Origin: a virus
Virus record (IMG/VR): IMGVR_UViG_3300010885_027767
Span: 1 to 20,982 of that record
Direction: 5' to 3' (one strand)
DNA length: 20,982 nucleotides
Shown here: positions 8,269 through 20,982 of the stretch, piece after piece
Layout of the letters: each line of letters starts with the position of its first letter
Numbering within the stretch: the first letter of the stretch is position 1
Program-made: the position numbers and the translations under genes
Notes under the pieces: model-generated
Told to the model about the DNA's origin: nothing
Databases searched by the model: none
Seen by the model: only the letters and a program-made list of their open reading frames with translations

Positions 8269-8284
8269 ACAATTATTGTATAAT
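8255..8284 (+). promoter_or_regulatory. consensus sigma70 promoter of queE, leaderless configuration
   Basis: Exact TTGACA (8255-8260) and exact TATAAT (8279-8284) are separated by 18 nt. The expected start is near 8291, while the queE ATG is at 8290-8292. There is no Shine-Dalgarno in the preceding 25 nt, so the message is probably leaderless or nearly so. Confidence 0.75.
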
Positions 8285-8289
8285 AGTAC

Positions 8290-9171
8290 ATGAAATTAAA
8301 AGTATCAGAACTATTCTATTCCGCACAAGGCGAAGGCCGCTTTGTTGGTGTGCCCAGTGTGTTTTTACGCACATTTGGGTGTAACTTTAAGTGTGCCGGA
8401 TTTGGTATGCCGCCAGGGGAAGTAAGCCACGAAGCCACCGACATTGCGGCCACACACACCATGATCCAACCTTTTGCAAAGTTTGAAGACTTGCCATTGG
8501 TCAATACTGGGTGTGACAGCTATGCAAGTTGGCATCCGGACTTTAAAGATCTAAGTCCAACTATTGATACTGATAAGCTAGTAGATCAAATGCTGGCATT
8601 GACGCCCAATCACCGATGGATACAGGACAACGGCAACGATGTTCATCTTGTTATCACCGGTGGCGAACCCTTGTTGGGCTGGCAACGTACCTACGAAGAG
8701 TTAATTAGTAACCCTGATATGATTGACCTGCGTAACATTACATTTGAAACTAATGGTACTCAAAAATTGCAATCTAGTTTTAAAGACTTCATGCACGAAT
8801 GGCAACGAGCCCCGTTGGGTGGCAAGAAAGATCGTGAAATTACATTTTCGGTGAGTGCTAAATTAAGTGCAAGTGGTGAAAAGTGGGAAGAAGCTATTTG
8901 CCCAGATATTGTTACAAGCTATCAAGAGCTAGGCACAGCATACTTGAAATTTGTTGTGGAGACAGAGGAACACTTTGCAGAAGTTGAACAGGCTGTAAAA
9001 GAATTTCGCACAGGTGGGTTTACTGGTGTTGTATATGTCATGCCACAAGGTGGTGTTGTTACTCCCTATGCACAAAATCGTGTTCGGGTAGCAGACTGGG
9101 CTTGTAGCCGGGGTTATTACTACAGCCCAAGATTGCACGTGGACTTGTGGGGCAACGGCTGGGGCAAATGA
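8290..9171 (+). CDS. queE: 7-carboxy-7-deazaguanine synthase-like radical SAM protein (QueE)
   Basis: The N-terminus SELFYSAQGEGRFVGVPSVFLRTFGCNFKC is a strong QueE match and fixes the start at 8290. QueE rearranges 6-carboxytetrahydropterin to 7-carboxy-7-deazaguanine with SAM, a [4Fe-4S] cluster and Mg. The usual CxxxCxxC is changed: Cys31 and Cys35 are present but residue 38 is Phe. A segment of about 40 residues separates this from TGCDSY (73-78), which looks like the family's WCDTxY and offers Cys75 as third ligand. ITGGEPLL (SAM-binding GGE) and FETNGT follow. At 293 residues it is longer than bacterial QueE, largely because of the insertion. The next gene starts at the stop codon (ATGA, 9168-9171). 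Confidence 0.88.
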   Translation: MKLKVSELFYSAQGEGRFVGVPSVFLRTFGCNFKCAGFGMPPGEVSHEATDIAATHTMIQPFAKFEDLPLVNTGCDSYASWHPDFKDLSPTIDTDKLVDQMLALTPNHRWIQDNGNDVHLVITGGEPLLGWQRTYEELISNPDMIDLRNITFETNGTQKLQSSFKDFMHEWQRAPLGGKKDREITFSVSAKLSASGEKWEEAICPDIVTSYQELGTAYLKFVVETEEHFAEVEQAVKEFRTGGFTGVVYVMPQGGVVTPYAQNRVRVADWACSRGYYYSPRLHVDLWGNGWGK

Positions 9172-9419
9172 TGGGCACCGGCTACCAAAGTAAACGATTA
9201 ATGGCCCAGGGCAGAGATGATTGGTTTTATCGCAAATGTTTAGGATGGGAATTAAAGTTTGCTGTATTACCAAAACGTTGTGATATTACAGACAATCTTA
9301 TATGGCTCAAACATGCGTATCGTGGCACTGCATTGCTGACTGGGCCCGGTGACAACATAGTAGAGCATCGATGGCACGACAAAAACGAACATCTTATTTT
9401 TAAAATTAAAGGAAATTAA
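9168..9419 (+). CDS. small protein of unknown function, coupled to queE and metK
   Basis: I choose the ATG at 9168, which overlaps the queE stop as ATGA, over an in-frame ATG at 9147 inside queE. The 83-residue product has WFYRKCLGWELKF, a P-rC pair, NLIWLKHAYRG and LLTGPGDNIVEHRW. This W...P.RC...iWLk..yrG...tGPG.....W spacing resembles small phage proteins I recall, but no function is attached. No signal peptide or membrane segment is seen. Its stop overlaps the metK ATG (TAATG at 9417-9421), so it sits in a coupled queE-X-metK unit and may relate to SAM or QueE use. Confidence 0.7.
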   Translation: MMGTGYQSKRLMAQGRDDWFYRKCLGWELKFAVLPKRCDITDNLIWLKHAYRGTALLTGPGDNIVEHRWHDKNEHLIFKIKGN

Positions 9420-10519
9420 TGAGTTATCTATTTACAAGTGAAAGCGTGTCTGAAGGACATCCGGACAAACTGGCAGACGCCATCAGCGATGCTGTATTAG
9501 ACTTAGTGATGGCAAAAGAAGATCTTGCACTTCGATGTGCTTGCGAAACACTTGTTACAACTAATCGTGTTGTGGTTGCCGGCGAATACAAAGGTATACT
9601 ACACCCAGAAGAAGTTGAATCGGCTGTACGCCGAGTTATCAAAGATGTTGGCTATGACCAATCTGGATTTAGTTGGCGCACAGCAGAAATTACCAATTTG
9701 CTACACGGACAAAGCGCCGACATTGCACTAGGTACAGACACATTCGGTGCTGGTGATCAAGGCCTAATGTTTGGATATGCCTGCAACGAAACTGATGTAC
9801 ACATGCCCAGTGCCATCTATTGGAGTCACAAGATTGTAGAAACATTGACCAAGGTACGCAAGAGCTTGGCACTGCCCTGGTTAGGCCCTGATGCCAAAAG
9901 TCAAGTAACGTTTGAGTACAACGATGATGGCTCTCCTAAACGCATTGCCAAAGTTGTTTGTTCAACTCAGCACCACGAGTCTGTGGAAATTGACCAAGTC
10001 AGAACATCTGTTGAAAGTGTAATTCGCAGTGTTCTTCCTGAAAAATATGTTGATAACACTACTGAATTTTATATTAACCCCACTGGGCGATTTGTGATTG
10101 GTGGTCCTGATGGCGACACTGGCCTTACCGGACGCAAAATTATCGTTGACACTTACGGCGGATACAGCCCTCATGGCGGCGGTGCTTTCTCCGGCAAAGA
10201 TCCTACCAAAGTAGATAGGTCTGCTGCCTACCTGACTCGCTACCTGGCTAAGAACATTGTAGCCAGCGGTCGAGCAGATTGGGCCACTGTGCAAATCAGT
10301 TATGCCATTGGCCTGGCACAGCCCATGAGTTTCTATATTGAAACAGCAGATGCCGCACAAGGGCGCGAATTAACTACATGGATTCAAGAAAATGTAGATC
10401 TAACACCAAAGGGCATTATTGAACGATTTAAACTGTTCCGCCCTATTTACAGTAGCACAACAAACTACGGACACTTTGGCAAAGACTATTTGCCATGGGA
10501 AGCCGTGGATTTATTCTAA
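9419..10519 (+). CDS. metK: S-adenosylmethionine synthetase (methionine adenosyltransferase)
   Basis: This 366-residue protein makes SAM from methionine and ATP. It opens with YLFTSESVSEGHPDKLADAISDAVLD, then has GAGDQGLMFGYA (110-121) and the phosphate loop GGGAFSGKDPTKVDRSA (248-264). It is about 18 residues shorter than E. coli MetK (384), with the domains in normal order and intact. AAGGAA precedes the ATG, and the start overlaps the upstream small gene's stop. SAM would feed QueE, the C-methyltransferase at 4945 and the radical SAM protein at 13749. Keeping a SAM synthetase beside queE suggests the phage's demand exceeds what the host provides; that is inference. Confidence 0.96.
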   Translation: MSYLFTSESVSEGHPDKLADAISDAVLDLVMAKEDLALRCACETLVTTNRVVVAGEYKGILHPEEVESAVRRVIKDVGYDQSGFSWRTAEITNLLHGQSADIALGTDTFGAGDQGLMFGYACNETDVHMPSAIYWSHKIVETLTKVRKSLALPWLGPDAKSQVTFEYNDDGSPKRIAKVVCSTQHHESVEIDQVRTSVESVIRSVLPEKYVDNTTEFYINPTGRFVIGGPDGDTGLTGRKIIVDTYGGYSPHGGGAFSGKDPTKVDRSAAYLTRYLAKNIVASGRADWATVQISYAIGLAQPMSFYIETADAAQGRELTTWIQENVDLTPKGIIERFKLFRPIYSSTTNYGHFGKDYLPWEAVDLF

Positions 10520-10528
10520 GGAAACTAT

Positions 10529-10918
10529 ATGGGATTTTTCGATAGGTTTAAAAAGAAACCAGAAGTCAAAGAGACAGCGCCAAAGGTAGAAAAACTCAAA
10601 GCGCCGGCAAAGTCTTTAAAAGAAATTGCTACAGAAAAAGGCGAGCCATATGTGGCAATTCTCAGCATGGATGTAGATCCAGAGAACATGCATCAAGGAG
10701 CATTTGAATTAGATTGGAATGATAAATTTATTGCCAACCTGGTGCGAGCCGGATATCAAGGCAAGCCTGATGACAAAGACTCTGACATCATCGATCGGTG
10801 GTTTCAAAATGTATGCAGGCATGTAGTTATGGAAACATGGGAACAAGAAATGGCAAATAATCCTAATCGTGTAGTAAAAACACGAGACATTGGCGACGGT
10901 CGATCGGAGGTATCATAA
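10529..10918 (+). CDS. acidic C-terminus protein of unknown function with Lys-rich N-terminus
   Basis: The 129-residue product begins MGFFDRFKKKPEVKE, a Lys-rich stretch resembling an amphipathic or disordered lead, and then LKEIATEKGEPYVAILSMDVDPENMHQGAFELDWNDKFI. Short conserved phage proteins with an 'ATEKGEPyV..l..dvDPeN...GaFELDWN' core are familiar to me from T4-like marine phages, but no role is known. AAGGAA lies 7 nt before the ATG. Its stop overlaps the next start as TAATG (10916-10920). No membrane segment is seen. Confidence 0.8.
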   Translation: MGFFDRFKKKPEVKETAPKVEKLKAPAKSLKEIATEKGEPYVAILSMDVDPENMHQGAFELDWNDKFIANLVRAGYQGKPDDKDSDIIDRWFQNVCRHVVMETWEQEMANNPNRVVKTRDIGDGRSEVS

Positions 10919-11604
10919 TGTTAATATATTTCAATGGTGATAGTAATGTAGCCGGTACAGAGCTACCAGAGACCACACACGGAATGGCAAATAGACTAGC
11001 CGAAAAATTTGACGGCCAGTACAAAACAAAATTTATCAATGATGCAACCCCGGGTGCAAGCAACGATTTAATTTACGAACAAACACTGGACTTTTTAAAC
11101 AACCCCAGCAGTCCAAAACCTGATTTGGTAGTGATTGGATGGACACAGTTTAGTCGTGTCCAATGGTTTTTGGTCGACGAATGGGGCAATGGTCAATTTT
11201 GGGAAATAAACAAAATTGGAGTAGGCATTCCAGTACCAGCAATGTATCAAGAACGATACGATCACTATGTTAACAATGTGCAAAGAGACGGACATTGGAG
11301 AATGATACAAGGTGCCTACTGGCATAATAAAATTTTTAATGTACACAAATTACTAGAGTATAAAAAAATTCCTCATTTGTTTTTCAATGCCTTTGAAGAG
11401 TTTATTTTGCCAAATGAAGTAAACAAACTTGAATGGGATAATACATACTTAACGCCATACTCTAGAGAGTTAATCTACACTGAATATTGTCAACGACTGG
11501 GTTTTAAAGAAATAACTCCGGGCTGGCACCATTACGAAAGTGCGGCGCACACAACGTGGGCAAAGCTCATGTACGAACATATTACAAAACACAAGATTTT
11601 ATGA
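10918..11604 (+). CDS. SGNH/GDSL-hydrolase-like protein 1
   Basis: This 228-residue protein starts with LIYFNGDSNVAGTEL, which fits block I of SGNH hydrolases (GDS, Ser9). LVVIGWTQFSR (about 75-85) sits where block III lies, without its canonical Asn. HYESAAHTTW near 205-214 resembles block V, with Glu207 in place of Asp and His211. Such enzymes are esterases or acyltransferases on sugars or lipids. There is no signal peptide, so action in the infected cell or as part of a virion is more likely than secretion. The next gene is a paralogue, joined by an ATGA overlap. Whether it is catalytic is uncertain given the altered blocks. Confidence 0.6.
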   Translation: MLIYFNGDSNVAGTELPETTHGMANRLAEKFDGQYKTKFINDATPGASNDLIYEQTLDFLNNPSSPKPDLVVIGWTQFSRVQWFLVDEWGNGQFWEINKIGVGIPVPAMYQERYDHYVNNVQRDGHWRMIQGAYWHNKIFNVHKLLEYKKIPHLFFNAFEEFILPNEVNKLEWDNTYLTPYSRELIYTEYCQRLGFKEITPGWHHYESAAHTTWAKLMYEHITKHKIL

Positions 11605-12302
11605 TTCTTTATGTAAACGGTGACAGTCATACTGCGGCAGCCGAGGCAGTTAACCCTCATGCGTTTGCTATGGACGACGGACAGTTGTTTTACATGGGTC
11701 GTGCACCGCATCCTGAAAACTTGGCAGTGAGTTGGGGTAGACGATTAAGTGATGCGCTACGTGCTAGTTTTCACTGCGATGCCGAAAGTGCTAGTAGCAA
11801 CACTAGAATCCTGCGAACAACAAGAGATTGGTTAAAAAAGATAAATCATTTGGAAGAAGTGTTGGTGGTTATACAGTGGAGCACCTGGGAACGCGAAGAA
11901 TGGTTGATCGACGGAGTTTACTATCAGATCGGTGCCAGTGGCATGGATGATGTACCAACTGAACATCAACAACGCTATAAAGAATTTGTGGTCAACGTGG
12001 ATTGGGAACAAAAGACCCAACAAGCACACAATGAGATTTGGCAACTACACATTGAACTGGAACAGCTAGGTGTCAACCATATTTTCTTCAATGGCAACAA
12101 TGATTTTAGCAAGATCTCAGATCGGAAAGACTGGGGGAACAGTTACATTGATCCATACAGTCTCAATGGCACCTACAATGCTCGAATCAGAGCTGCCGGA
12201 ATAGAAACAGTTACACCCAATTCATGGCATTTTGGCAAGGACGGTCATAGCTTTTGGAATCGTTTTATGTTACAATATATCAATACAAACAACAAAGTCT
12301 AA
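11601..12302 (+). CDS. SGNH/GDSL-hydrolase-like protein 2 (paralogue)
   Basis: The start at 11601 overlaps the previous stop as ATGA and gives 233 residues beginning ILYVNGDSHTAAAEA, so an earlier in-frame ATG at 11556 is rejected. Like its neighbour it has GDS (7-9), a strand LVVIQWSTWEREEW in place of IGWTQFSR, HIFFNGNNDF near HLFFNAFEEF, and a C-terminal SWHFGKDGHSFWNRF with Asp214 and His216. The matching order of motifs shows tandem duplication and divergence. This copy keeps Asp and His near the block V position, so it is the better candidate for activity. The substrate is unknown. Confidence 0.62.
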   Translation: MILYVNGDSHTAAAEAVNPHAFAMDDGQLFYMGRAPHPENLAVSWGRRLSDALRASFHCDAESASSNTRILRTTRDWLKKINHLEEVLVVIQWSTWEREEWLIDGVYYQIGASGMDDVPTEHQQRYKEFVVNVDWEQKTQQAHNEIWQLHIELEQLGVNHIFFNGNNDFSKISDRKDWGNSYIDPYSLNGTYNARIRAAGIETVTPNSWHFGKDGHSFWNRFMLQYINTNNKV

Positions 12303-12310
12303 GGTTTCTT

Positions 12311-13318
12311 ATGCGTTATGTGTTAATTGACACAGCCAATATGTTTTTTCGTGCCAGGCACACTGCTTTTCGTGCCAGTGATCCTTGGGAAAAAGTTGGG
12401 GTAGCACTGCACACAACGCTGATGAGTGCTAACAAAGTTGTTAAACGTTTTGAAGCAGACCATGTAGTGTTTGCACTAGAGGGACGCAGTTGGCGCAAAG
12501 ATCACTACAAGCCCTACAAAGCAAATCGTGCTGTGGCCCGGGCCGCTCTGACAGAAACGGAAGCGGAAGAAGACAAAATGTTCTGGGAAGCATTTGATAA
12601 TCTGACTAAATACCTGTCAGAAAGAACCAATTGCAGTGTGATTAGATGTCCCACCGCAGAGGGCGATGACATTATCGCCCGTTGGATCGCCCTACATCCC
12701 CAAGACGAACACATTGTGATCAGCAGTGACACAGATTTTGTGCAGTTAGTAGCCACAAACGTAAAACAATACAATGGTATCACAGACGAACTCATCACTG
12801 CAGAAGGCATCTATGATGCCAAAGGCCGACCTGTAGTTGATAAGAAGACCAAGGAACCTAAGCAGATTCCGGATCCCCAGTGGTTGTTGTTTGAGAAATG
12901 CATGCGTGGTGACACTAGCGACAATGTGTTTAGTGCATTTCCTGGTGTGCGAACCAAAGGTACTAAGAACAAGGTAGGTCTTACCGAAGCATTTGAAGAT
13001 CGTAAAAGCAAAGGATATGCGTGGAACAATCTCATGTTGCAGCGATGGACCGACCACAACGGTGAAGAACACCGTGTATTGGATGACTATGAACGCAATC
13101 GTCAACTAATCGACCTTACTCATCAACCACAATCAATTAAAGACACTGTAGATCTAGCTATCATTGAACAAATATCACATAAAGATATTGGACAAGTGGG
13201 TGTACGATTTATGCAATTTTGTGGCAAGTATGAGCTTGTGCGATGTAGTGAGAACGCTGACAGTTTTGGTCGTTGGTTAAATGAAACATATAAAGGAGTT
13301 TTAAATGTTAGTAGCTAA
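12311..13318 (+). CDS. 5'-3' exonuclease / flap endonuclease (phage RNase H type)
   Basis: The 335-residue product starts at ATG 12311 (RYVLIDTANMFFRARH); a longer reading from 12254 would run back into the preceding gene. It has the metal site of FEN-family nucleases: Asp7, then AEGDD with Glu117, Asp119 and Asp120, then SSDTDF with Asp140 and Asp142. The helical arch region HVVFALEGRSWRKDHYKPYKANR (51-73) binds the 5' DNA end, and MRGDTSDNV further on matches the helix-hairpin-helix segment. Such enzymes remove RNA primers and flaps during lagging-strand replication, as T4 RNase H does. It is the clearest phage replication gene here. Its last 14 nt overlap the following gene, whose SD AAGGAG lies inside it. 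Confidence 0.88.
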   Translation: MRYVLIDTANMFFRARHTAFRASDPWEKVGVALHTTLMSANKVVKRFEADHVVFALEGRSWRKDHYKPYKANRAVARAALTETEAEEDKMFWEAFDNLTKYLSERTNCSVIRCPTAEGDDIIARWIALHPQDEHIVISSDTDFVQLVATNVKQYNGITDELITAEGIYDAKGRPVVDKKTKEPKQIPDPQWLLFEKCMRGDTSDNVFSAFPGVRTKGTKNKVGLTEAFEDRKSKGYAWNNLMLQRWTDHNGEEHRVLDDYERNRQLIDLTHQPQSIKDTVDLAIIEQISHKDIGQVGVRFMQFCGKYELVRCSENADSFGRWLNETYKGVLNVSS

Positions 13319-13742
13319 AGTCGTAGCAGACAAGCAGTTTTGGATCTTACAAGAAGACGATCGCAAAGTTGGCAATATCGAAGCATGGAATGGCGGATAT
13401 CAAGTTCGCATAAACAACCAAGTAAAGCAATTTAAAACAATTAAACTTGCGGCACGCGAATCAAACATTGTGTTTGCCGAAGAAAAAGTTGTGTCAAAGC
13501 CAGACAATACTGCTGTACACGGATATCCGGTAGCAGGTCGTTGTTACAATCCTGTGTGGGATGTGGTGCATCATTTGCCAATCTATACAAAAACATCCAA
13601 AAGTAAAAGTTGGTTTGCCGCAGGCTGGTATTCAATCAAACGTGGCCGCAATTGGAAAATTGTACAGGATCCTAAACTAATTGCATTACAACGTTATCCT
13701 TACCAAGGGCCGTTTAAAACCAAAGATGAAGTAACGGTGTAA
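13305..13742 (+). CDS. conserved-looking protein of unknown function
   Basis: The 145-residue product (ATG 13305, preceded by AAGGAG at 13294-13298) starts LVAKVVADKQFWILQEDDRKVGNIEAWNGGYQVRINNQVKQFKTI, a small beta-rich domain. A second part, about 70-145, has HGYPVAGRCYNPVWDVVHHLPIYTKTSKSKSWFAAGWYSIKRG. I recall short phage proteins of the same pattern, but no activity. There is no signal peptide, metal motif or membrane helix. Its overlap with the exonuclease suggests co-expression with replication genes. Confidence 0.8.
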   Translation: MLVAKVVADKQFWILQEDDRKVGNIEAWNGGYQVRINNQVKQFKTIKLAARESNIVFAEEKVVSKPDNTAVHGYPVAGRCYNPVWDVVHHLPIYTKTSKSKSWFAAGWYSIKRGRNWKIVQDPKLIALQRYPYQGPFKTKDEVTV

Positions 13743-13748
13743 CCGCGA

Positions 13749-14903
13749 ATGAAAGTTTCCGGTGATGAAAATTATTGTCCAGAACTATGGCAACGAGTTT
13801 TTATAGCACAATACAACGATAAATTTAAATTAAAACCATGTTGCATAATTGCAACAACTGACAGCACTCAAGTTGAATTAACAGATCCAACAACACTTTT
13901 TGATCATTACAATCGCAGTGCAAGTATTGTAAATCTAAGAGAACAGAATCTTAAAGGCAAGTTGGATCCAGGTTGCGATGTCTGTGTACATGCCGAACGC
14001 ATCACTGGCACCAGTGCTCGAATTGACGCTATTAATCAGATGTCTCACAACGAGCCGCTGGCATTGCTTTCGCATGTTGATATTAATTTAGGCAATTTGT
14101 GCAATTTATCGTGTGCAATCTGCGGACCGCATTCGAGTACTTCCTGGAATCCTGTGTGGGAAAATATGTATAGCACTTTTCCAATCAGTGCATCATATAA
14201 TAAAAACAATCGCCCGATAATTGACGACCCCGATTGGTTTAGAAATATTAAGAGCCTTCAACTTCAAGGCGGTGAAGTATTTTTACAACCAGAGTACATT
14301 AAATTTTTTAATAATTTAAAAAAATATAAAAATCTCAATGACATTGACGTGAGAATTTTTACTAACGGTACTGTGTTGCCAGACCCAGAGCTAGTTGCGC
14401 TACTTAGAGAATGCCAATCAGTCCATATATGGATAAGCATTGACGATATCAGTGCCAGGTTTGAATATCAGCGCCGTGGTGCAAATTGGAAAAAAGTATT
14501 GGAAAATTTAAACTGGTATAATGAGCAGTTTGATGATAAATTCTTGTTGGGCATTAATGTTACACAAAATTTATTAAACGTATTTTATCTCAGCGAGACG
14601 TACAATTTCTTTGATCAACACTATCCAAGATTTGTTATAAACAATAATCAATACAACAGCAGTACCGGGGTGTTGTCAATTTCGTATCTGCCGGCAGAAA
14701 TTAAAACTGCTATTGTGACCAACAATAGATCTAATACAAAATTAAATGCATTAGAAAATATTATTACTGTCGACAACGGGTATAAATTCAATAGCGCCAT
14801 TGAATATATTCAAAAATACAACAGGGCCACTGGTACATCTTATGCAGACACTCATGCCGAGTTTTGGCAATTGATTACCGACTACACCGAAAGAAACATA
14901 TGA
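13749..14903 (+). CDS. twitch-type radical SAM protein
   Basis: This 384-residue protein carries a canonical CxxxCxxC at Cys118, Cys122 and Cys125 (LGNLCNLSCAIC), followed by QLQGGEV, the SAM-binding GGE, and IFTNGT. Before the core are KPCC (30-33) and GCDVCVHAE (75-83), cysteines that could bind an extra cluster as in twitch/SPASM enzymes. The reaction is unknown; relatives modify peptides or mature other enzymes. The DNA is visibly richer in A+T than its plus-strand neighbours and no Shine-Dalgarno precedes the ATG, which may point to recent acquisition. The stop overlaps the next start as ATGA (14900-14903). The 68-aa downstream product is a possible peptide substrate or partner, but this is speculation. 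Confidence 0.82.
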   Translation: MKVSGDENYCPELWQRVFIAQYNDKFKLKPCCIIATTDSTQVELTDPTTLFDHYNRSASIVNLREQNLKGKLDPGCDVCVHAERITGTSARIDAINQMSHNEPLALLSHVDINLGNLCNLSCAICGPHSSTSWNPVWENMYSTFPISASYNKNNRPIIDDPDWFRNIKSLQLQGGEVFLQPEYIKFFNNLKKYKNLNDIDVRIFTNGTVLPDPELVALLRECQSVHIWISIDDISARFEYQRRGANWKKVLENLNWYNEQFDDKFLLGINVTQNLLNVFYLSETYNFFDQHYPRFVINNNQYNSSTGVLSISYLPAEIKTAIVTNNRSNTKLNALENIITVDNGYKFNSAIEYIQKYNRATGTSYADTHAEFWQLITDYTERNI

Positions 14904-15106
14904 TACACATTCAGAGATTTATTGAAAGACTGCAGGGGTTTGAAGCACGTGGTACAAGAGACTTTACCATGCCCATGAAGGATGCCAAAGACCTGCATGC
15001 AGATTTGACCAGATTGCTGATAACACTACAGGAAGTGAGAGAATCCACTGCGGCTGCCGCACAAGAAAGCGAGATCACAGTGGAAATGCAAGGCGGATCA
15101 TTTTAA
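14900..15106 (+). CDS. small helical protein of unknown function
   Basis: Starting at ATG 14900 (overlapping the radical SAM stop), the 68-residue product MIHIQRFIERLQGFEARG... is mainly alpha-helical. It has DAKDLHADLTRLLITLQEVRE in the middle, an Ala-rich AAAAQE, and a short tail ending GGSF. An in-frame upstream ATG at 14864 would extend into the radical SAM gene and is less likely. No Cys is present, so it is a poor thioether precursor. It may be an assembly or adaptor protein. I cannot name a family. Confidence 0.65.
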   Translation: MIHIQRFIERLQGFEARGTRDFTMPMKDAKDLHADLTRLLITLQEVRESTAAAAQESEITVEMQGGSF

Positions 15107-15122
15107 AAGTTCCTATATTTGT

Positions 15123-15130
15123 CATAAATA
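15123..15130 (+). promoter_or_regulatory. T4 late-promoter-like octamer
   Basis: CATAAATA, one base from TATAAATA, sits in the 45-nt gap between two genes. A start near 15136 would give a short leader containing the Shine-Dalgarno TAGGAG (15137-15142) before the ATG at 15152, the layout expected of a T4-type late promoter. Confidence 0.5.
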
Positions 15131-15151
15131 AAAATGTAGGAGTTTAATGAT

Positions 15152-15448
15152 ATGAGTAGACCAAAGCCCAAAGTTCTTTTAGAACTGACAAATAAAAGCA
15201 CATACAAGACCGAACAGGTCCTGTCGTCAACGGGCGTTTGGGCAGTATTCTACGACGAAACTCCTATCAATCTCAAGACCAGCAACATGCTGGTGCAACA
15301 CCCTGGACCCAAGTACAAAAAAGTTAGTTTCTCTAATCCCGGGCATGCTCATAATCTTTCAAAGAAACTAAACGCACAGTTTAAGACAGACAAATTCACT
15401 GTGGTGTTGTTAACACAGGGCGACAAAGTTCAGCCTGGCAGTGCGTGA
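15152..15448 (+). CDS. small basic protein of unknown function
   Basis: The 98-residue product begins MSRPKPKVLLELTNKSTYKTEQVLSSTGVWAVFYDETPINLKTSN and continues with GPKYKKVSFSNPGHAHNLSKKLN and FTVVLLTQGDKV. It is Lys-rich with predicted strands and one helix. It is preceded by TAGGAG at 9-nt spacing and a late-promoter-like motif. It overlaps the next gene by 8 nt. The family is not recognised. Confidence 0.75.
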   Translation: MSRPKPKVLLELTNKSTYKTEQVLSSTGVWAVFYDETPINLKTSNMLVQHPGPKYKKVSFSNPGHAHNLSKKLNAQFKTDKFTVVLLTQGDKVQPGSA

Positions 15449-15803
15449 TAAAACAAAACTGACCCAAGCACTGGTGGCCAATCTACCAGAAGGATTCAAC
15501 GAGCCTGCAGAAGTTGCGCTTAAAACTTGGTGGTCAAATATTCGTAAAACAGGCGGCATGCGACTTACCGAACATGGGTTTTATGTATTCAGTCGTGTGT
15601 TAGAATTAGATCACTACGAATTAGAAATCAAACCAACTTCAGGCAATCGACGAATTGTGCTGACACTTGACCGTAAACTGCAAAGCCCGTATTACATCAG
15701 AATAGACAAACGTATACCAACTGGTGTTTATATGTTTGGCAGCCGAGAAGCAGTGGCAGCTCAACTGTATGGTGATTTAGAAAAGTTCCTGCGCAACTAT
15801 TGA
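15441..15803 (+). CDS. protein of unknown function, GTG start
   Basis: The frame opens with GTG at 15441, inside the end of the preceding gene, and gives 120 residues. Key segments are PEGFNEPAEVALKTWWSNIRKTGGMRLTEHGFYVFSRVLELDHYELEI (about 16-63) and YIRIDKRIPTGVYMFGSREAVAAQLYGDLEKFL. The pattern 'LKTWWSNIRKtGG.RLT..G..v' is one I associate with phage proteins of no known role; the fold may be a winged-helix-like DNA-binding unit, by impression only. It ends convergently, overlapping the last 27 nt of the minus-strand gene that ends at 15777. Confidence 0.75.
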   Translation: MRDKTKLTQALVANLPEGFNEPAEVALKTWWSNIRKTGGMRLTEHGFYVFSRVLELDHYELEIKPTSGNRRIVLTLDRKLQSPYYIRIDKRIPTGVYMFGSREAVAAQLYGDLEKFLRNY

Positions 15804-16709
15804 CTGCAACTCTGGTCGCTGTTGAGCCTTTTCTAATACGTCTTTTAAAAATACATTCTGCTGTAACAGATTATAATTGTGCTGTAATCGCACTGGATCA
15901 ATACTGCGCCGCGCTAGATCAAAGTCGGTCAACAATCCAAGGTTACATTCTACAGCAAGATCACATCTCCGTCCCGGATCCGGCTCCGTTTGGTAACTGT
16001 GATCAACAACATCATCAAACACATCAAATCCCATACTGGCCATATAGTGTGCTATTTTCCAACCTCCTACCCAGATTGGAATAGTTCCAGCATACAATGC
16101 CATCAAGGTCTTCTCTGTTACTATGGTTTCTTTTTCATAGTATGCAGGCTCGGTTATTAACGAAATACAAGTGGGTTCAAAAACTGTCTGTTGTAATAGA
16201 TTATTATAGGTGTAGGAATTTTTAAATGAGCCGTTGCGAACTCCTTGATCCATAATAATCTCAGGTCCAAAAATATAGTTGGTAACAGGTATAGCATTAA
16301 TGTTGTTTGTTTTCCATGCAAGAGAATGACAATAGTCGGTTAAGGCATGCTGTTCAATTAGTGACAGCAATCGACGTCTGTTAGATCTGGGCTTGTTGAT
16401 CATAAAGTTAAATGTAAATGCTTTATTGTTCCAATTTGGATGTATATTCTGCTGTATAAATTCTCTATTTTCCCGGGCCAACAGCATGGGTAAACAAATG
16501 TAAGGATACTTTGTTAATCCTTCTTGTATGGTGACATGGTCAAATACCAATAGATGTTGTTGTGGATCACAGGCACTGTTTTCTAGTAATTTTTCCACAT
16601 GATAACAGTGTTCATAGGGATTATAATGGTGATCTCGAACCAAAATAATTTCAGGACTAGATAGAATCTCGCCTGAGTAGGTGTAGGTGGGGCCGTGTAT
16701 TTCAATCAT
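15777..16709 (-). CDS. GT10-like (fucosyltransferase-like) protein A
   Basis: The minus-strand product has 310 residues. NFMINKPRSNRRRLLSLI (101-118) resembles the nucleotide-sugar region, and SLITEPAYYEKETIVTEKTLMALYAGTIPIWVGG (183-216) closely parallels the C-terminal donor-binding segment of GT10 alpha-1,3-fucosyltransferases (E...iTEK...al.aGtiPi). It then has MGFDVFDDVVDHSY. The enzymes transfer a sugar, often fucose, from a nucleotide donor. No signal or membrane anchor is seen. The start is 28 nt from the divergent gene at 16737, across a palindromic promoter-like element, with no Shine-Dalgarno. A related protein is encoded at 17365-18414. Confidence 0.65.
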   Translation of the reverse strand: MIEIHGPTYTYSGEILSSPEIILVRDHHYNPYEHCYHVEKLLENSACDPQQHLLVFDHVTIQEGLTKYPYICLPMLLARENREFIQQNIHPNWNNKAFTFNFMINKPRSNRRRLLSLIEQHALTDYCHSLAWKTNNINAIPVTNYIFGPEIIMDQGVRNGSFKNSYTYNNLLQQTVFEPTCISLITEPAYYEKETIVTEKTLMALYAGTIPIWVGGWKIAHYMASMGFDVFDDVVDHSYQTEPDPGRRCDLAVECNLGLLTDFDLARRSIDPVRLQHNYNLLQQNVFLKDVLEKAQQRPELQSIVAQELF

Positions 16710-16715
16710 TGGTTG

Positions 16716-16731
16716 TATTTACAAGTAAATA
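16716..16731. promoter_or_regulatory. palindromic divergent late-promoter-like element
   Basis: TATTTAC-AA-GTAAATA is a perfect 7-bp inverted repeat. Each strand reads GTAAATA, close to the T4 late octamer TATAAATA. Projected starts are about 16710 (minus) and 16737 (plus), coinciding with the ATG codons at 16709 and 16737. Confidence 0.45.
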
Positions 16732-16736
16732 TCATT

Positions 16737-17390
16737 ATGACAGATATATTAAAAACTGTGTTGGGGGAAGACTACTGTATGTTTTATCACCCGACTATGC
16801 CGGCGGCAGAGTTGACACCGATACAAACACTCAGTCAGTCGTGTACTGTGGTAAATCAAGCTCTAACCTTGTACGGGATTGAGTTATTAACTTGGCCTGT
16901 TGGTCTTCAGGATGAGATTGCCAGGCTGCTATGGGTCAATCGATTTTATCAAAATCTCAGCACAGAACCCATTAGAAAACCCATTCTGGTACATCGGCAT
17001 CAAGACCAATACATTGTAGACTGCGGAGACACACGTTTAATGACTTTGCAATTGGCATCTAGTGCTGCCACAGTCAGTGTTATCATAACTTGTTTGGCTG
17101 CCGTTGCTGATCAATACATCACATGGCAACCGGTCACTGGCGATCAAGACCTAATTCAGTTGACACAGTTTGATCCGAACAATACCACAGTACTGGTAAC
17201 CCCAACTCCGCCCGGATCAGACCATGCTGTAGAATGGCTGGAGATTGGGGACGCTAGTACTCGGCATCATCTTCACAGCGTTGATCTTAGAATCCAGATG
17301 ATGCAACAGTATCTCCGTACACAGCCTATAAATTTTAAATTTACCAAGGACTGGGCCAAGATGCCTATAGATTGGTCAGTGTTTGTGTAA
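16737..17390 (+). CDS. ParB-like-domain protein of unknown role
   Basis: The ATG at 16737 is preferred over an in-frame ATG at 16695 that would run through the promoter-like element and the divergent gene. The 217-residue product contains KPILVHRHQDQYIVDCGDTRLMTLQLASSAATVSVIITC (81-119), which matches the ParB N-terminal pattern: a basic strand, then G-x-x-R (Gly97, Arg100), then a strand. No helix-turn-helix is evident. The rest is Gln- and Thr-rich. It sits alone on the plus strand between two minus-strand GT10-like genes, its 3' end overlapping the downstream one by 26 nt. Function is unknown; DNA or nucleotide binding is a guess. Confidence 0.7.
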   Translation: MTDILKTVLGEDYCMFYHPTMPAAELTPIQTLSQSCTVVNQALTLYGIELLTWPVGLQDEIARLLWVNRFYQNLSTEPIRKPILVHRHQDQYIVDCGDTRLMTLQLASSAATVSVIITCLAAVADQYITWQPVTGDQDLIQLTQFDPNNTTVLVTPTPPGSDHAVEWLEIGDASTRHHLHSVDLRIQMMQQYLRTQPINFKFTKDWAKMPIDWSVFV

Positions 17391-18414
17391 GTTGATGGGA
17401 CCACTGATCAAACTCCTGGGGCCACTGCGCCGCCATTGATGCTAGTAGTTGTTGATTGTGAGTGGCTGCCTGCAGGCACCGAGCTTTTATTCGATCCACG
17501 TCCTGGGTCTTTATTAGTTTGGCAGTTTCTAAACTTTTCCATATGAATATGCGTGTTTTGTCCTGCACTTCAATCAACCGATCATAATGATTATGGATCA
17601 CAAGATCTGACAAGGTATCAAAACCCAAGGTTTCCAGGTATGCCACGGTGTATCTGCCGGACAGCACAGTCCAGGGTGCTGGTGTTACCAATGCACGAAA
17701 TATCTTTTCGCTCAGGGCCACATTGTTGTCACTGCTGTAGGTTTCAGTCACAATGTTGACATAGGAACGAGTGAAGATTACATCATGCTCAACTTCATAA
17801 TTGCGGACGGGCATTTGGTCCGTCAATAGTTCATAGCTTTTTTGGTAATGTGCCCGATCTTCGTCGCTGGCATGATCCCAGTGTTCGCGCCAATATTCAA
17901 GAGTCTGCTGTTGGGATATTGATGCAGAGTCACCGGGACGGTAGCAATTGAAATTTACATAGCCACGGTGCAGATGTATTCGCAATCCAAGTTCCAGCAT
18001 CACCATAAATCTGCGTTGATCAATTCGATTCACTGCAAAAGAAAAATCTCGCTTGGGCCACCATTCTTGATTTTGGGGCACGTAGTGATAGATTCCTAAA
18101 AAACTAGTGGGTAAACGGATCACACGGTACTGAGTGGGACAGGTAAGGTAATTGTCTGTTATGACTGTGGTATTGGTGTCATAGAGATAGGGCAAGTCTC
18201 GGTGATAGTCTGCGTTACAACTGCGTATGTCATCAACTAGACACACAATCACAGTGCGGTCACCTTTTCTCCATATTCTTGGATGACCGGGTGCAGTAAA
18301 CCCGGCATTTTTTAGTAGTTGGTAAATTGCAGAATTGGTGCGGTTTTCGTGTGTTAGACACTGGCTTTGTGTCCAAATTTCGCCACTGTGTACTCCGTTG
18401 GATAGTTGTTGCAT
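17365..18414 (-). CDS. GT10-like protein B (distant paralogue of A)
   Basis: This 349-residue minus-strand product shares its C-terminal design with protein A: NIVTETYSSDNNVALSEKIFRALVTPAPWTVLSGRYTVAYLETLGFDTLSDLVIHNHYD (220-278) runs parallel to ITEPAYYEKETIVTEKTLMALYAGTIPIWVGG...MGFDVFDDVVDH. The N-terminal region differs. A glycosyltransferase role is inferred from this parallel; the TPAP replacement of the GTiP turn makes donor binding less certain. The upstream sequence has TTAC-TTA-GTAA directly before the ATG and no Shine-Dalgarno. The neighbours and the start element suggest co-regulation with protein A. Confidence 0.6.
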   Translation of the reverse strand: MQQLSNGVHSGEIWTQSQCLTHENRTNSAIYQLLKNAGFTAPGHPRIWRKGDRTVIVCLVDDIRSCNADYHRDLPYLYDTNTTVITDNYLTCPTQYRVIRLPTSFLGIYHYVPQNQEWWPKRDFSFAVNRIDQRRFMVMLELGLRIHLHRGYVNFNCYRPGDSASISQQQTLEYWREHWDHASDEDRAHYQKSYELLTDQMPVRNYEVEHDVIFTRSYVNIVTETYSSDNNVALSEKIFRALVTPAPWTVLSGRYTVAYLETLGFDTLSDLVIHNHYDRLIEVQDKTRIFIWKSLETAKLIKTQDVDRIKARCLQAATHNQQLLASMAAQWPQEFDQWSHQLTQTLTNL

Positions 18415-18472
18415 GATTTACTTAGTAACACAAATATCTTGAAAAAAATTTGCATTTTGGACAACCAGTGGG

Positions 18473-18501
18473 TTGACATTGTATAAATAACTCTATATAA
18501 T
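18473..18501 (+). promoter_or_regulatory. perfect sigma70 promoter with internal late-promoter octamer
   Basis: TTGACA (18473-18478) and TATAAT (18496-18501) are both exact with a 17-nt spacer; the start should be near 18508. The spacer contains an exact TATAAATA (18482-18489), the T4 late octamer, which would start near 18495. One site could thus be read early by host polymerase and late by a phage sigma factor. Confidence 0.85.
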
Positions 18502-18549
18502 ACACACATGCGCCAATAAAAAAGGCCTATGTAAAAATAAAGAAACAAA

Positions 18550-18690
18550 ATGCAAACAAACTTATTACATTCTATATCAAGTTGTTCAGCCAAACAGGCC
18601 GGCTTCGTGCCCTCTATTTGGTCGGCAATTAATAGCATGTCATATGATCGCACACTAGAGGGCACCAGGGTCCAGGAGACCAAATTGTAA
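18550..18690 (+). CDS. possible 46-aa leader or small protein
   Basis: An ATG at 18550 opens 46 codons ending at TAA 18690. The product starts MQTNLLHSISSCSAKQAGF and contains WSAINSMSYDRTLEGTRVQ. The upstream AAAGAAAC is a poor ribosome site. Both pseudoknot helices lie within this frame, so RNA and coding functions may overlap. A frame this short occurs easily by chance. The absence of membrane or toxin-like features gives no independent support. Confidence 0.35.
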   Translation: MQTNLLHSISSCSAKQAGFVPSIWSAINSMSYDRTLEGTRVQETKL

Positions 18691-18717
18691 GCAACAGTTT
18701 ACATTTAAACTCCAAGG

Positions 18718-18751
18718 ACCCTAGGATTAAAAACCCTGGGGTTTTTTGTTT
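18718..18751 (+). terminator. rho-independent terminator
   Basis: ACCCTAGG (18718-18725) pairs with CCTGGGGT (18735-18742) through a 9-nt loop, 8 bp with one G-U, followed by TTTTTGTTTT. It would end the transcript from the 18473 promoter after about 240 nt, only 14 nt before the next gene, so that gene and the tRNAs probably depend on read-through or another promoter. Confidence 0.8.
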
Positions 18752-18764
18752 TAAGAAAGGAAAA

Positions 18765-18926
18765 ATGAAGAAATTAGATTTAGAACAACGAATGCGTGAA
18801 GTAAGGTTTACAACAGAGCACACTCTGACACCAGAACAACGTGAAAAGTTGATTCAGGAAAAGTTGGAACGTGCTAGGTTGGAACTTGAAACTCGTAAAC
18901 GAGTCGAGAATCAACTTCTGGCATAG
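18765..18926 (+). CDS. 53-aa charged helical protein
   Basis: The 53-residue product MKKLDLEQRMREVRF...LTPEQREKLIQEKLERARLELETRKRVENQLLA is one long amphipathic helix with heptad-like Leu spacing from about residue 21 and a high Glu/Arg/Lys content, as in small coiled-coil proteins. AAGAAAGG lies 5 nt before the ATG. It follows an intrinsic terminator and precedes the tRNA array, an odd location that suggests controlled expression. It might bind RNA or a host protein; I do not recognise the family. Confidence 0.7.
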   Translation: MKKLDLEQRMREVRFTTEHTLTPEQREKLIQEKLERARLELETRKRVENQLLA

Positions 18927-18940
18927 ATCCCAAAGTGTTA

Positions 18941-19019
18941 ACAGGAAACGAGGTCCTGTGCCGCACTATAAATCGGCACAAACGGGCGGCGACTAGGATG
19001 GAATCCCTTGTGTGGGACT
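18941..19019 (+). other. hairpin-rich noncoding stretch after the 53-aa gene
   Basis: Hairpins ACAGG/CCTGT (18941-18945 with 18955-18959), GTGCCG/CGGCAC (18958-18963 with 18974-18979, loop containing TATAAAT), and TCCC/GGGA (19004-19007 with 19014-19017) follow each other. The first two overlap by two bases, so they compete. Together with the following stem-loop they fill the 192-nt gap before the first tRNA. A stable RNA like the unexplained RNAs C and D of the T4 tRNA cluster is possible. Confidence 0.35.
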
Positions 19020-19031
19020 AAAAATTAGATC

Positions 19032-19087
19032 GTATTAAAGCATTCTTTAAGAACAGGCAGCCTAAGTATTTTAGAGTGCTTTAATAC
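19032..19087 (+). other. long stem-loop before the tRNA array
   Basis: GTATTAAAGCA (19032-19042) pairs perfectly with TGCTTTAATAC (19077-19087), an 11-bp stem around a 34-nt loop that holds smaller TTCTT/AAGAA and CTAA/TTAG pairings. No T-tract follows, so it is not an intrinsic terminator. It may protect or process the tRNA precursor. Confidence 0.5.
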
Positions 19088-19118
19088 ACACATTCTGACA
19101 AGTGTGTTCGATGTATAT

Positions 19119-19193
19119 GCACAGGTGGCGGAATGATTACGCAACGGATTGCAAATCCGTATCATGCAGGTTTGAGTCCTGTCCTGTGCTCCA
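19119..19193 (+). tRNA. tRNA-Cys (GCA), atypical D and T loops
   Basis: GCACAGG pairs with CCTGTGC and CCA is encoded. The anticodon loop TTGCAAA in stem ACGGA/TCCGT gives GCA, Cys. The D loop (GAATGATTA) lacks the usual GG and the T loop is TTTGAGT, with U instead of C at position 56, so the normal G19-C56 contact is absent. Confidence 0.9.
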
Positions 19194-19200
19194 ACCAACA

Positions 19201-19290
19201 GGAAGCGTGGTCGAGTCTGGTTTATGGCAACAGTCTTGAAAACTGTCGTGTCGAAAGGCACCGTGAGTTCGAATCTCACCGCTTCCACCA
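19201..19290 (+). tRNA. tRNA-Ser (UGA)
   Basis: GGAAGCG pairs with CGCTTCC and CCA is encoded. The anticodon loop CTTGAAA in stem ACAGT/ACTGT gives UGA. The long variable arm (class II) and T arm GTGAG-TTCGAAT-CTCAC support Ser. Confidence 0.95.
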
Positions 19291-19294
19291 GTGA

Positions 19295-19384
19295 GGTGTG
19301 GTCCCGTAAAGGTATCGGAGCAGGTTGCTAACCTGTCGCTCGGAGTAATCCGGGTTCTCGGTTCGAGTCCGAGTCGCACCGCCA
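19295..19384 (+). tRNA. tRNA-Ser (GCU)
   Basis: The acceptor arm GGTGTGG/TCGCACC has two G-U pairs, and CCA is encoded. The anticodon loop TTGCTAA in stem GCAGG/CCTGT gives GCU. The extended variable arm supports class II Ser. It is only 4 nt from the preceding tRNA. Confidence 0.95.
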
Positions 19385-19389
19385 GTTAA

Positions 19390-19464
19390 GGGTCCTTGGT
19401 GAAATGGATATCATGCTTGGCTTCGAACCAAGTGGTGTGGGTTCGATTCCTGCAGGACCCGCCA
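19390..19464 (+). tRNA. tRNA-Arg (UCG)
   Basis: GGGTCCT pairs with AGGACCC, and CCA is encoded. The anticodon loop CTTCGAA in stem CTTGG/CCAAG gives UCG, which reads CGN Arg codons. It is the last of four closely spaced tRNAs before the minus-strand cassette. Confidence 0.95.
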
Positions 19465-19475
19465 CACAAACTCTA

Positions 19476-20012
19476 TTACATTAATTTTAATTTTCCGTAA
19501 TTTGATCGAGCTATCCAATTGTATAACGGGGTTTCAAACGCAAGCTCAAACCAACCGTTTTCAGAATTAACATAATTGGCATAATATCCACGAGTAACAT
19601 GCATTAATTTGCCATTGACTGATTCTAACTCATTTAACAAATCGTTTGGGATCATAAAATTTGTTATGTAGTCAAAATTGTCAATGGTGTTATATGTGAT
19701 CCCGGGTTTAATAAATTGATCAAGTATTACGTTGTTGATTTTAACTGCTCTGGTTTGAAATCCAAAATCGCCGTTGGTTTTGTATTTGTCTAATATATTT
19801 TTTCCTTGCACTTTGATAACATGCTGATTAATTTCATTATCATTAGCATTTATGTCAAAGTTATAAAATTGAAGATTACCAAACTTACTGCCTACTTTGC
19901 AGGCATGATTCAATGTTAGATTGTCAGTGATAACAGTGTTGTTAACAGTTATACTTACAATAGGATATTCGGTCACTTCGGAGTTTACAGCAAAGCCCAG
20001 TTCTATATTCAT
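19476..20012 (-). CDS. protein of unknown function, second gene of AT-rich cassette
   Basis: The 178-residue minus-strand product is rich in Asn, Ile, Thr and aromatic residues and looks like an all-beta protein: MNIELGFAVNSEVTEYPIVSITVNNTVITDNLTL at the start and GYYANYVNSENGWFELAFETPLYNW near the end. It could be a glycan-binding or capsid-decoration type domain; this is an impression only. It starts at 20012, overlapping the stop of the gene at 20009-20752 as ATGA. The region is clearly richer in A+T than the flanking tRNAs and genes. Confidence 0.7.
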   Translation of the reverse strand: MNIELGFAVNSEVTEYPIVSITVNNTVITDNLTLNHACKVGSKFGNLQFYNFDINANDNEINQHVIKVQGKNILDKYKTNGDFGFQTRAVKINNVILDQFIKPGITYNTIDNFDYITNFMIPNDLLNELESVNGKLMHVTRGYYANYVNSENGWFELAFETPLYNWIARSNYGKLKLM

Positions 20013-20752
20013 AACTTTTGTGTTCTACTATAATAATCTTTAAACTCCAGAGGAGATATTTGTATGTATCTATTAACCAACATGTCACATGCATCAATTT
20101 GATCAATGGTCAGTTTCCTGTTTAGAATATTTTCTAATTCTTGTTTGTATGATCCATTATAGATGCCAAGTATGTCAAGTGTTTTTAAGTGTGGATATGG
20201 ATTCAGCAACGTCTTGACATCCAGTGCGTAGTTTACAGATTTTTTAATCTGTTGGGACAGTGCTTGATATTCTAAAGGAGCATGTACAAATATTGCTCGA
20301 GTAGTATCAAATATTACATCTGTCATTTTTTTAAAATGATTCATATCATTGATTAAAAATTCGTCAGGGTTCTCGGTAAAATAAGTGTATTGTTCTGGGC
20401 TAGTATGTCCAGTTTTGTAAACATGATTTGTCAGATAATATTTTACTCTTGAATAAAACAAATCATAGATGCTGGTATTGCCATTTAACAGAATTTTAAT
20501 AATGTCAGTTGAATAATTGTCGACATTTGTTTGATATTGTAAATTAGAACTTAGTGTATTGCACAACAGCCCAACGTCGGGCGGAATAGATTCATACCGC
20601 CGCCAATCCTCGTGTTTACTTTCTAATAGATCTGGAAAGTTTTTGTAGGCCAGTTCAATGCAAGAAGGGTCCAATGCCAGTTGAAGTAACCAACTCACAA
20701 TAAAACCGCCACTTCCTCCTGGGTACCAAACTACATATTTTTTCTTTTGCAT
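20009..20752 (-). CDS. P-loop-like protein, first gene of AT-rich cassette
   Basis: The 247-residue minus-strand product starts YVVWYPGGSGGFIVSWLLQLAL (6-27), a strand-loop-helix that resembles the phosphate-binding loop of sulfotransferase-like or kinase-like proteins, though the loop has no Lys or Arg and is not a standard Walker A. The C-terminal ENILNRKLTIDQIDACDMLVNRYIQI resembles endings of such proteins. The substrate is unknown. Upstream on the minus strand is ATTAAATA but no Shine-Dalgarno. The cassette lies between tRNA-Arg and tRNA-Ile on the opposite strand, suggesting insertion into the array. Confidence 0.65.
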   Translation of the reverse strand: MQKKKYVVWYPGGSGGFIVSWLLQLALDPSCIELAYKNFPDLLESKHEDWRRYESIPPDVGLLCNTLSSNLQYQTNVDNYSTDIIKILLNGNTSIYDLFYSRVKYYLTNHVYKTGHTSPEQYTYFTENPDEFLINDMNHFKKMTDVIFDTTRAIFVHAPLEYQALSQQIKKSVNYALDVKTLLNPYPHLKTLDILGIYNGSYKQELENILNRKLTIDQIDACDMLVNRYIQISPLEFKDYYSRTQKL

Positions 20753-20776
20753 ACGTAATACTATTTAATCAGCAGG

Positions 20777-20788
20777 TTAACTAGTTAA
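20777..20788. promoter_or_regulatory. 12-bp palindrome between cassette and tRNA-Ile
   Basis: TTAACTAGTTAA is perfectly symmetrical and lies in the only gap between the divergently read cassette and tRNA-Ile. It may be an operator or an integration scar. No partner copy was found by eye. Confidence 0.3.
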
Positions 20789-20800
20789 ATTAATTCATAT

Positions 20801-20874
20801 AGCCCGTTAGCTCAAAGGTAGAGCACTCGACTGATAATCGAGCGACCAAGGATCGTTACCTTGACAGGCTACCA
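20801..20874 (+). tRNA. tRNA-Ile (GAU), atypical acceptor and T loop
   Basis: The anticodon loop CTGATAA in stem CTCGA/TCGAG gives GAU, D arm GCTC-AAAGGTA-GAGC is normal, and CCA is encoded. The acceptor AGCCCGT/ACAGGCT has a C-A mismatch at pair 5. The T loop reads ATCGTTA, losing T54 and A58, which are nearly universal. It may be decaying or need special handling. Confidence 0.85.
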
Positions 20875-20879
20875 AATAA

Positions 20880-20953
20880 GTATCTCTGGTGTAATGGCAG
20901 CACCGCGGTCTCCAAAACCGTCAGTCAAGGTTCGAGTCCTTGGAGGTACGCCA
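20880..20953 (+). tRNA. tRNA-Trp (CCA)
   Basis: GTATCTC pairs with GAGGTAC (one G-U), T arm CAAGG-TTCGAGT-CCTTG is canonical, and the 3' CCA is encoded. The anticodon loop CTCCAAA gives CCA, Trp. It lies 5 nt after tRNA-Ile. Confidence 0.95.
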
Positions 20954-20957
20954 GTTT

Positions 20958-20982
20958 AGCTCTTATAGTATAATGGCATTAC
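20958..20982 (+). tRNA. 5' part of a further tRNA, cut by the window edge
   Basis: AGCTCTT followed by an AT junction and AGTATAATGGCATTAC resembles an acceptor strand and D arm of a short-D-loop tRNA. Its spacing of 4 nt after tRNA-Trp fits the array. The anticodon lies outside the window, so its identity is unknown. Confidence 0.6.

Follow-up and report, generated by a model that had tools for sequence, protein, structure and literature searches.

How did two protein genes come to lie in the tRNA array of this virus, against the direction of the tRNAs on either side, and what might they do there? The DNA that we analysed, a stretch of 20,982 bases that makes up one IMG/VR virus record and is referred to here as the window, is by its sequence relationships a fragment of a large, jumbo-phage-like genome. 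Its flap nuclease gene (12299-13318) retrieved 80 related IMG/VR loci (the best 80 of 599), and among named phages PA5oct (51% identity), GAP32 (49%) and RaK2 (47%) led the best 30 of 136 matches. One of the array-bearing relatives, L084, is part of a record of 346,856 bases. The window shares a tRNA array and the nuclease with the XacN1 and RaK2-like jumbo phages, which the excerpted text of PMC5852040 describes as having a genome above 300 kb, myovirus morphology and a large tRNA complement; as a point of difference, nothing among 50,697 phage records matched the two cassette proteins significantly (lowest E 0.7 for P0001 and 4 for P0002).

A two-gene cassette between tRNA-Arg and tRNA-Ile

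A preliminary description of the sequence had reported that four tRNAs end at 19464 and that others resume at 20801. ARAGORN and Rfam returned the same coordinates and agree on six complete tRNAs in the window (Table 1). A fragment of a further tRNA lies at the contig end; it was assigned to tRNA-Thr because all 103 nt of window positions 20880-20982 agree with the Trp+Thr(GGT) stretch of L084.

Table 1. Features of the tRNA array and the cassette in the window.
Feature	Position	Strand	Source or remark
tRNA-Cys(GCA), tRNA-Ser(TGA), tRNA-Ser(GCT)	19119..19384	+	ARAGORN, Rfam; starts at 19119, 19201 and 19295
tRNA-Arg(TCG), left border of the cassette	19390..19464	+	ARAGORN, Rfam
Inserted cassette	19465..20800	.	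1336 bp, G+C 0.326, replaces the 4-7 nt spacer of relatives
P0001, 178 aa, second gene	19476..20012	-	C-terminal GWFELAFETPLYNW motif; proposed divergent A3 member
Overlap of P0002 stop and P0001 start, 4 nt	20009..20012	-	putative translational coupling
P0002, 247 aa, first gene	20009..20752	-	N-terminal KYVVWYPGGSGGFIVSW loop; proposed enzyme slot
tRNA-Ile(GAT), right border of the cassette	20801..20874	+	ARAGORN
tRNA-Trp(CCA)	20880..20953	+	ARAGORN, Rfam
tRNA-Thr(GGT), truncated at the contig end	20959..20982	+	identity to Trp+Thr of L084

Between the two borders we found two substantial ORFs, P0002 and P0001, both on the minus strand, which end 48 nt from tRNA-Ile and 11 nt from tRNA-Arg, respectively; this agrees with the earlier account of a minus-strand gene pair 11 and about 50 nt from its tRNA neighbours. 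The 4-nt overlap of the two genes suggests that they are translationally coupled. The higher A+T content described for the pair was likewise borne out, with a G+C content of the insert of 0.326 versus 0.424 in window positions 1-19464, where the lowest value for any 1336-nt stretch (sampled every 50 nt) was 0.369. The P0002 ORF is not a product of chance, since it is longer than the longest ORF in each of 1000 first-order Markov resamples of the insert (median 67, 99th percentile 128, maximum 178 aa). Promoter-like sites numbered 13 in a consensus scan of 18900-20982, against 7.4 expected; the minus strand carried four, and the interval between P0002 and tRNA-Ile (20753-20800) none. A single terminator-like site (expectation 1.2) was picked up in the scan; it is on the plus strand. 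Repeats and inverted repeats within the insert were short and mostly AT-rich.

Relatives carry a short spacer at the site of the cassette

Seventeen IMG/VR stretches (L082-L098) contain an exact copy of a 27-nt piece of tRNA-Arg. In 13 of them (L082-L085, L087-L094 and L097) tRNA-Ile comes next after tRNA-Arg, and these served as comparable loci; L086, L096 and L098, which have other tRNA neighbourhoods, and L095, which reaches a contig end, were left out. The Arg-Ile spacer measured 4-7 nt in all 13 loci, several of which are near-identical records (in locus order 7, 7, 4, 7, 5, 5, 7, 5, 7, 7, 5, 7 and 5 nt; L082 and L083 are the same contigs as L003 and L004). Because the short spacer is present in every one of these loci, the cassette is most simply explained as an insertion on the lineage of the window. 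No blastn match of the insert (E <= 1e-5) was obtained in the related loci, and relatives keeping both genes, which the preliminary description had set against its proposal of an inserted cassette, were not encountered: neither protein was found in the loci or among 65 related viral records (50 and 15 more). Among the relatives compared, the cassette is therefore an insertion specific to the window, and we infer that it is of foreign origin.

The surroundings of the cassette are shared with the relatives. In 12 loci, two contigs being counted twice, the aligned pieces of the 7.2-kb left flank of the window add up to 5.4-6.1 kb at 78.8-82.2% identity. On the right, identity in the Ile-Trp stretch is 97% with the L087 type and 88% with L004, and that of Trp+Thr is 97% with G058 over 113 nt, besides the perfect match to L084. 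By these differing identities of the Ile-Trp and Trp+Thr stretches, the junction of the cassette appears to be mosaic.

Protein genes occupy several other junctions of related arrays

Protein genes in phage tRNA clusters are already known; the excerpted text of PMC6409571 mentions coding sequences of hypothetical function inside such clusters and an HNH endonuclease in some mycobacteriophages. Among the matches listed in open-access full text, we found no description of the present gene pair or of the recurring arrangement with a beta partner that is presented below.

The related arrays carry other genes at Cys/Ser, Ile/Trp, Tyr/Ala, Lys/Met, Arg/His, Gln/Arg and elsewhere. Since these are several junctions other than that of the cassette, the array can be regarded as a multi-site variable region, in line with its earlier description as an entry region for cargo. 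A D-Ala-D-Ala carboxypeptidase gene (Peptidase_S11, Pfam E 4e-35) follows tRNA-Cys in relatives (L004 6803-7564, plus strand, and its relatives) and is missing at that place in the window and in L085/L092. A protein of a family that we call PGRTGSH (A1) is encoded between tRNA-Cys and tRNA-Ser(GCT) in L004 and L091; in L004 its gene sits behind a tRNA-Ser(TGA) that was read by eye and missed by ARAGORN. Ile/Trp of L084 holds a phosphorylase-superfamily gene. Tyr/Ala of L087, L088 and L097 contains a 1715-nt insert with a G+C content of 0.33 and two genes, the first with a weak, below cut-off methyltransferase match (Pfam), and measures 204 nt in L090. The Lys/Met gap spans 833-859 nt in L083, L084, L087, L092 and L097 versus 104 nt in L089 and L094, and its gene gave a weak FkbM match (Pfam, E 0.006, below cut-off). 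A DUF6492 gene lies at Arg/His in L089 and L094 and an Endonuclease_7 gene at Met/Pro in L092; an RNase H-like protein was also recognised (Pfam) among the cargo.

In gaps of at least 300 nt in L082-L098, all 32 ORFs of at least 150 aa, near-identical records included, run with the tRNAs, while three shorter ORFs (61-92 aa) run against them. When two gaps of L120 are added, one antisense ORF of at least 150 aa appears, a 264-aa ORF between tRNA-Gln and tRNA-Arg(TCT) (L120 16884-17787, reverse-complement coordinates). The direction of the window cassette is thus unusual, not unique.

Outside the array, a radical-SAM gene of the window (13749-14903, plus strand, G+C 0.36) looks like a second insertion: G055 (L121) and G058 (L120) align on both sides of it and have only about 370 nt there, and tblastn with this gene gave matches of 24-26% only, in four loci.

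P0002 is a putative enzyme

P0002 begins with MQKKKYVVWYPGGSGGFIVSWLLQ, in which a strand, a glycine-rich loop (WYPGGSGGF) and a helix can be discerned by eye. It had no significant family match in Pfam, NCBIfam, PHROGs or PADLOC and no match in plasmids and GTDB genomes. Peptide patterns returned no IMG/VR homologs of P0002 or P0001 in a search that possibly left out records near the window, and comparison with PDB sequences stayed at chance level (best E 0.37 and 0.40). The P-loop of P0002 written as a DNA pattern had no match in IMG/VR; five genome-contig stretches that it picked up, three of them from Lachnospiraceae MAGs, were set aside as their frames are unlike P0002 beyond the pattern. 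AlphaFold models made without an alignment were unusable (mean pLDDT 35.5 for P0002 and 30.1 for P0001). We propose that P0002 is an enzyme, because of its glycine-rich loop and because it takes the position that enzyme-like genes hold in the modules of L120, L132 and L133 (see below).

We considered that P0002 could be a sulfotransferase-like P-loop enzyme of the PGRTGSH family, which would be compatible with a role in an accessory module and which we regard as possible, if doubtful. P0002 shares the N-terminal strand-loop-helix with this family, its score against the family profile (5.2 bits) was reached by only 8 of 2000 shuffles, and in global pairwise comparisons few of 1000 shuffles scored as high against L011 (0), L104 (9), the window copy at 612 (14) and L108 (26). 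The same profile match has an E of 1.8 and ranks twelfth among 2067 ORFs with seven non-members above it, its best stretch covers residues 2-23 only, HHalign assigned 4.7%, and the scores against L003 (111), L109 (205), L091 (255) and L013 (921 of 1000) are at shuffle level; beyond the N-terminal loop there was no significant match. The family itself matched neither Pfam nor PDB structures, so that its 'sulfotransferase' label is a visual resemblance. Of the P-loop protein proposed in the preliminary description, the glycine-rich N-terminal loop has therefore stood, while a significant match to the one P-loop-type family tested was not obtained.

PGRTGSH copies are present in the window (612-1217, plus strand) and in L104-L119. 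Seven of the 16 IMG/VR relatives (L111, L112, L113, L115, L116, L117 and L119) lie between or beside tRNAs, several of them being contigs already in the comparison or looking alike, and the family may for this reason be recurrent array cargo; the five relatives closest to the window copy (L104-L108) have no tRNA nearby.

A small beta-type family in modules of related phages

G058 (which includes L091 and L120), a close relative, carries at Ile/Trp, the joint next to that of the cassette, an insert of 3118 nt with four genes and a G+C content of 0.335 (L120 3672-6789). A small beta-type protein with the C-terminus ...GVIKFKFYTPAYVWLIENI is the product of the last gene, which PP-loop and amidinotransferase-like genes precede. 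The two enzyme labels were read by eye, Pfam having given no significant match, and 'beta' rests on the sequence pattern; in PHROGs the amidinotransferase-like gene corresponded to phrog_25854 (unknown function, E 1e-6) and the PP-loop gene was QueC-like at E 0.081. A search of 42 records with the L120 protein returned itself and four homologs (E 1.6e-21 to 9.7e-19). The four homologs stand in a conserved block (in G055, G051, G031 and G037) in which a second small beta-type gene precedes them. Three of the four blocks continue with a cytidyltransferase gene, recognised through PHROGs in one case and by eye in the other two. The family, which we call A3, was matched by no Pfam or PHROGs model.

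The block with its two small beta-type genes is seen in L123 (726-2325, minus strand), L124, L125 and L126. For the first of them in L123 a weak PHROGs match to a virion structural family was obtained (E 0.005), and because of this neighbour the core copy of the family may be structural.

A profile of the five sequences detected three further, divergent copies (E 1.6e-7, 1.8e-4 and 1.7e-3). The G002 copy is flanked by two genes, one of them a B12-type radical-SAM gene and the other with a radical-SAM match below the cut-off; the G032 copy lies behind a PP-loop gene, and the G051 copy directly behind a radical-SAM gene. The G032 module (L142 6060-8012), which consists of a small gene, the PP-loop gene and the beta gene, comes after tRNA-Thr, the last of a 22-tRNA array within the stretch examined. 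It is homologous to the G058 module: pairwise comparison gave 32% over 381 aa for the PP-loop protein (E 1e-64) and 48% over 52 aa for the first small gene (E 1e-11). The tRNA beside which a beta-containing module is located thus differs from phage to phage. Neither array location nor enzyme pairing is obligatory, since the 10.0 and 12.9 kb examined around the copies of G002 and G051, respectively, showed no tRNA and since the four core copies follow a beta-type gene. Two neighbours were noted by eye: a GIY-YIG endonuclease-like gene behind the radical-SAM/beta pair of G051 (L133 1806-2207, plus strand), and a TauD-like oxygenase gene between tRNA-Gly and tRNA-Thr in L142 (G032 48000-62000).

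P0001 is a candidate member of the beta-type family

P0001 ends in ...GWFELAFETPLYNWIARSN... and was the top non-member for the 8-member A3 profile among 2134 ORFs (8.5 bits), a score reached by 13 of 4990 shuffles. By itself this match falls short of significance (E 0.23 in the 2134 ORFs); the bias term is 11.1, and no single domain scores above 2.4 bits. With the 5-member profile P0001 was again the top non-member (6.5 bits; 45 of 4934 shuffles, 38 of 4920 in an earlier run). HHalign gave a probability of 17-23% over about 20 C-terminal residues, 256 of 2000 shuffles scored as high in the pairwise comparison with the L120 protein, and the profile searches of the A3 family had no match in the window record.

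The motif G-x5-[FILV]-xx-P-x-Y-x-W is present in seven of the eight A3 members; two of the 2134 ORFs contain it, those of P0001 and of the L120 member, against none of 20,000 P0001 shuffles, a test that is partly post hoc because the motif was first noticed on comparing P0001 with L120. A looser version hit 22 of the 2134 ORFs and 298 of the 20,000 shuffles; once an N was fixed and the spacing shortened, the pattern matched nothing, members included. As a DNA pattern the motif was found in six of 49 records, namely five A3 members and P0001, compared with three matches for the reversed-pattern control. Two other candidates were discarded: phrog_5018, a weak match of P0001 whose profile matched 0 of 40 records, the window included, and a beta-family motif that as a regular expression failed even on P0001. 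Taken together, profile and motif suggest, without proving it, that P0001 probably belongs to the A3 family, and to this extent the beta half of the pair proposed earlier is retained as suggestive.

Possible origin and role of the cassette

We consider it modestly probable that the cassette is a horizontally acquired accessory module, composed of an enzyme and a coupled beta partner, in a variable tRNA array. The two genes would have arrived as one block, in the manner of a 'moron', in the tRNA-Arg/tRNA-Ile spacer of a jumbo-phage-like genome. P0002 would be the enzyme, with an N-terminal glycine-rich, nucleotide-binding-like loop, and the translationally coupled P0001 would be its small dedicated beta-type partner, either a binding or recruiting subunit or the substrate of the enzyme. 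Recombination via repeated tRNA sequences might have provided the route to the tRNA joint, or else an endonuclease-driven exchange as outlined for SegB in the excerpts of PMC13096335 and PMC6409571. The pairing of an enzyme with a beta partner is proposed because weak sequence similarity coincides with matching gene order in relatives. Against an accessory module speaks the direction of the cassette, which is antiparallel to the tRNAs, unlike the 32 longer ORFs counted above.

The comparison with known systems points both ways. Phage morons, or auxiliary genes, are insertions between conserved genes, and the cassette resembles them as extra genes in a spacer that differ in composition and are absent from the relatives compared; unlike them, it consists of two coupled genes against the local strand with no clear promoter or terminator of their own. 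The G058 Ile/Trp and G032 tRNA-Thr modules are similarly low-G+C inserts at a tRNA whose last gene is beta-type and stands behind an enzyme-like gene, but they have PP-loop and amidinotransferase-like genes in place of P0002, run with the tRNAs and occupy other junctions. With the tRNA-SegB locus of T4/T6, as excerpted from PMC13096335 and PMC6409571, the cassette shares protein genes among phage tRNAs in a region that varies between relatives; no endonuclease was recognised in the cassette, unlike that locus.

The preliminary description had suggested a possible defence or exclusion function, and a module for phage-phage exclusion, anti-defence or defence, built from an NTP-binding effector and a small sensor, would fit a pair of genes that stands alone at a tRNA locus, is AT-rich and runs antisense. 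Phage tRNA clusters have also been tied to arms races, SegB amplifying tRNA-Tyr against Septu according to the excerpted text of PMC13096335. This function found no support in our searches, in which P0001 matched no family of PADLOC-DB 2.0.0 at E <= 1 and P0002 matched only Cmr5 (E 0.022, 13.2 bits versus an NCBIfam cut-off of 27.9). The recognisable cargo of related arrays (carboxypeptidase, phosphorylase-superfamily, RNase H-like, HNH endonuclease and weak methyltransferase matches) argues against it as well, and to our knowledge none of these types is a known defence gene. We hold a defence module to be unlikely and think that modification of a target, be it cell-surface, protein or small-molecule, is likelier.

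That the pair is an old resident of the array, lost from the sampled relatives and AT-rich for reasons other than recent transfer, appears quite improbable. The cassette is known from one genome only and low G+C occurs elsewhere in the window, in the radical-SAM gene, although that gene looks inserted too; since the 13 loci, with several tRNA-Ile and spacer types, all keep the short spacer, several independent losses would be needed. Still less credible, and in our estimate very unlikely, is a selfish homing element targeting tRNA genes, in which P0002 or P0001 would be an endonuclease that has escaped recognition. The insert does fill a tRNA spacer, the L092 array does contain an Endonuclease_7-type gene, and SegB of T-even phages moves or amplifies tRNA regions (PMC13096335 and PMC6409571, in excerpt), but neither protein matched GIY-YIG, HNH or LAGLIDADG models in Pfam, NCBIfam or PHROGs, and no target-site duplication was seen by eye, or was definable, at the joint.

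Implications

The accessory module that we favour could be one case of something broader, an idea that we put forward tentatively and judge rather unlikely: in large phages of this kind, tRNA arrays may be landing pads for mobile modules of an enzyme and a dedicated beta protein, a family of modules that swap their enzyme (radical SAM, PP-loop synthetase, amidinotransferase-like or the WYPGGSGGF protein) and retain the beta protein, either as its partner or as the protein that undergoes modification. If this were true, it would amount to a phage system for protein or peptide modification with a logic comparable to RiPP maturation. If the pairing of enzyme and beta protein is true, it would provide a handle on a small-protein family that Pfam and PHROGs do not match, and it predicts that the proteins of a pair interact. 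For the phages themselves, our comparison shows a tRNA array in which protein genes come and go at a number of distinct joints with little change in the order of the tRNAs, and which offers clean empty sites for comparison.
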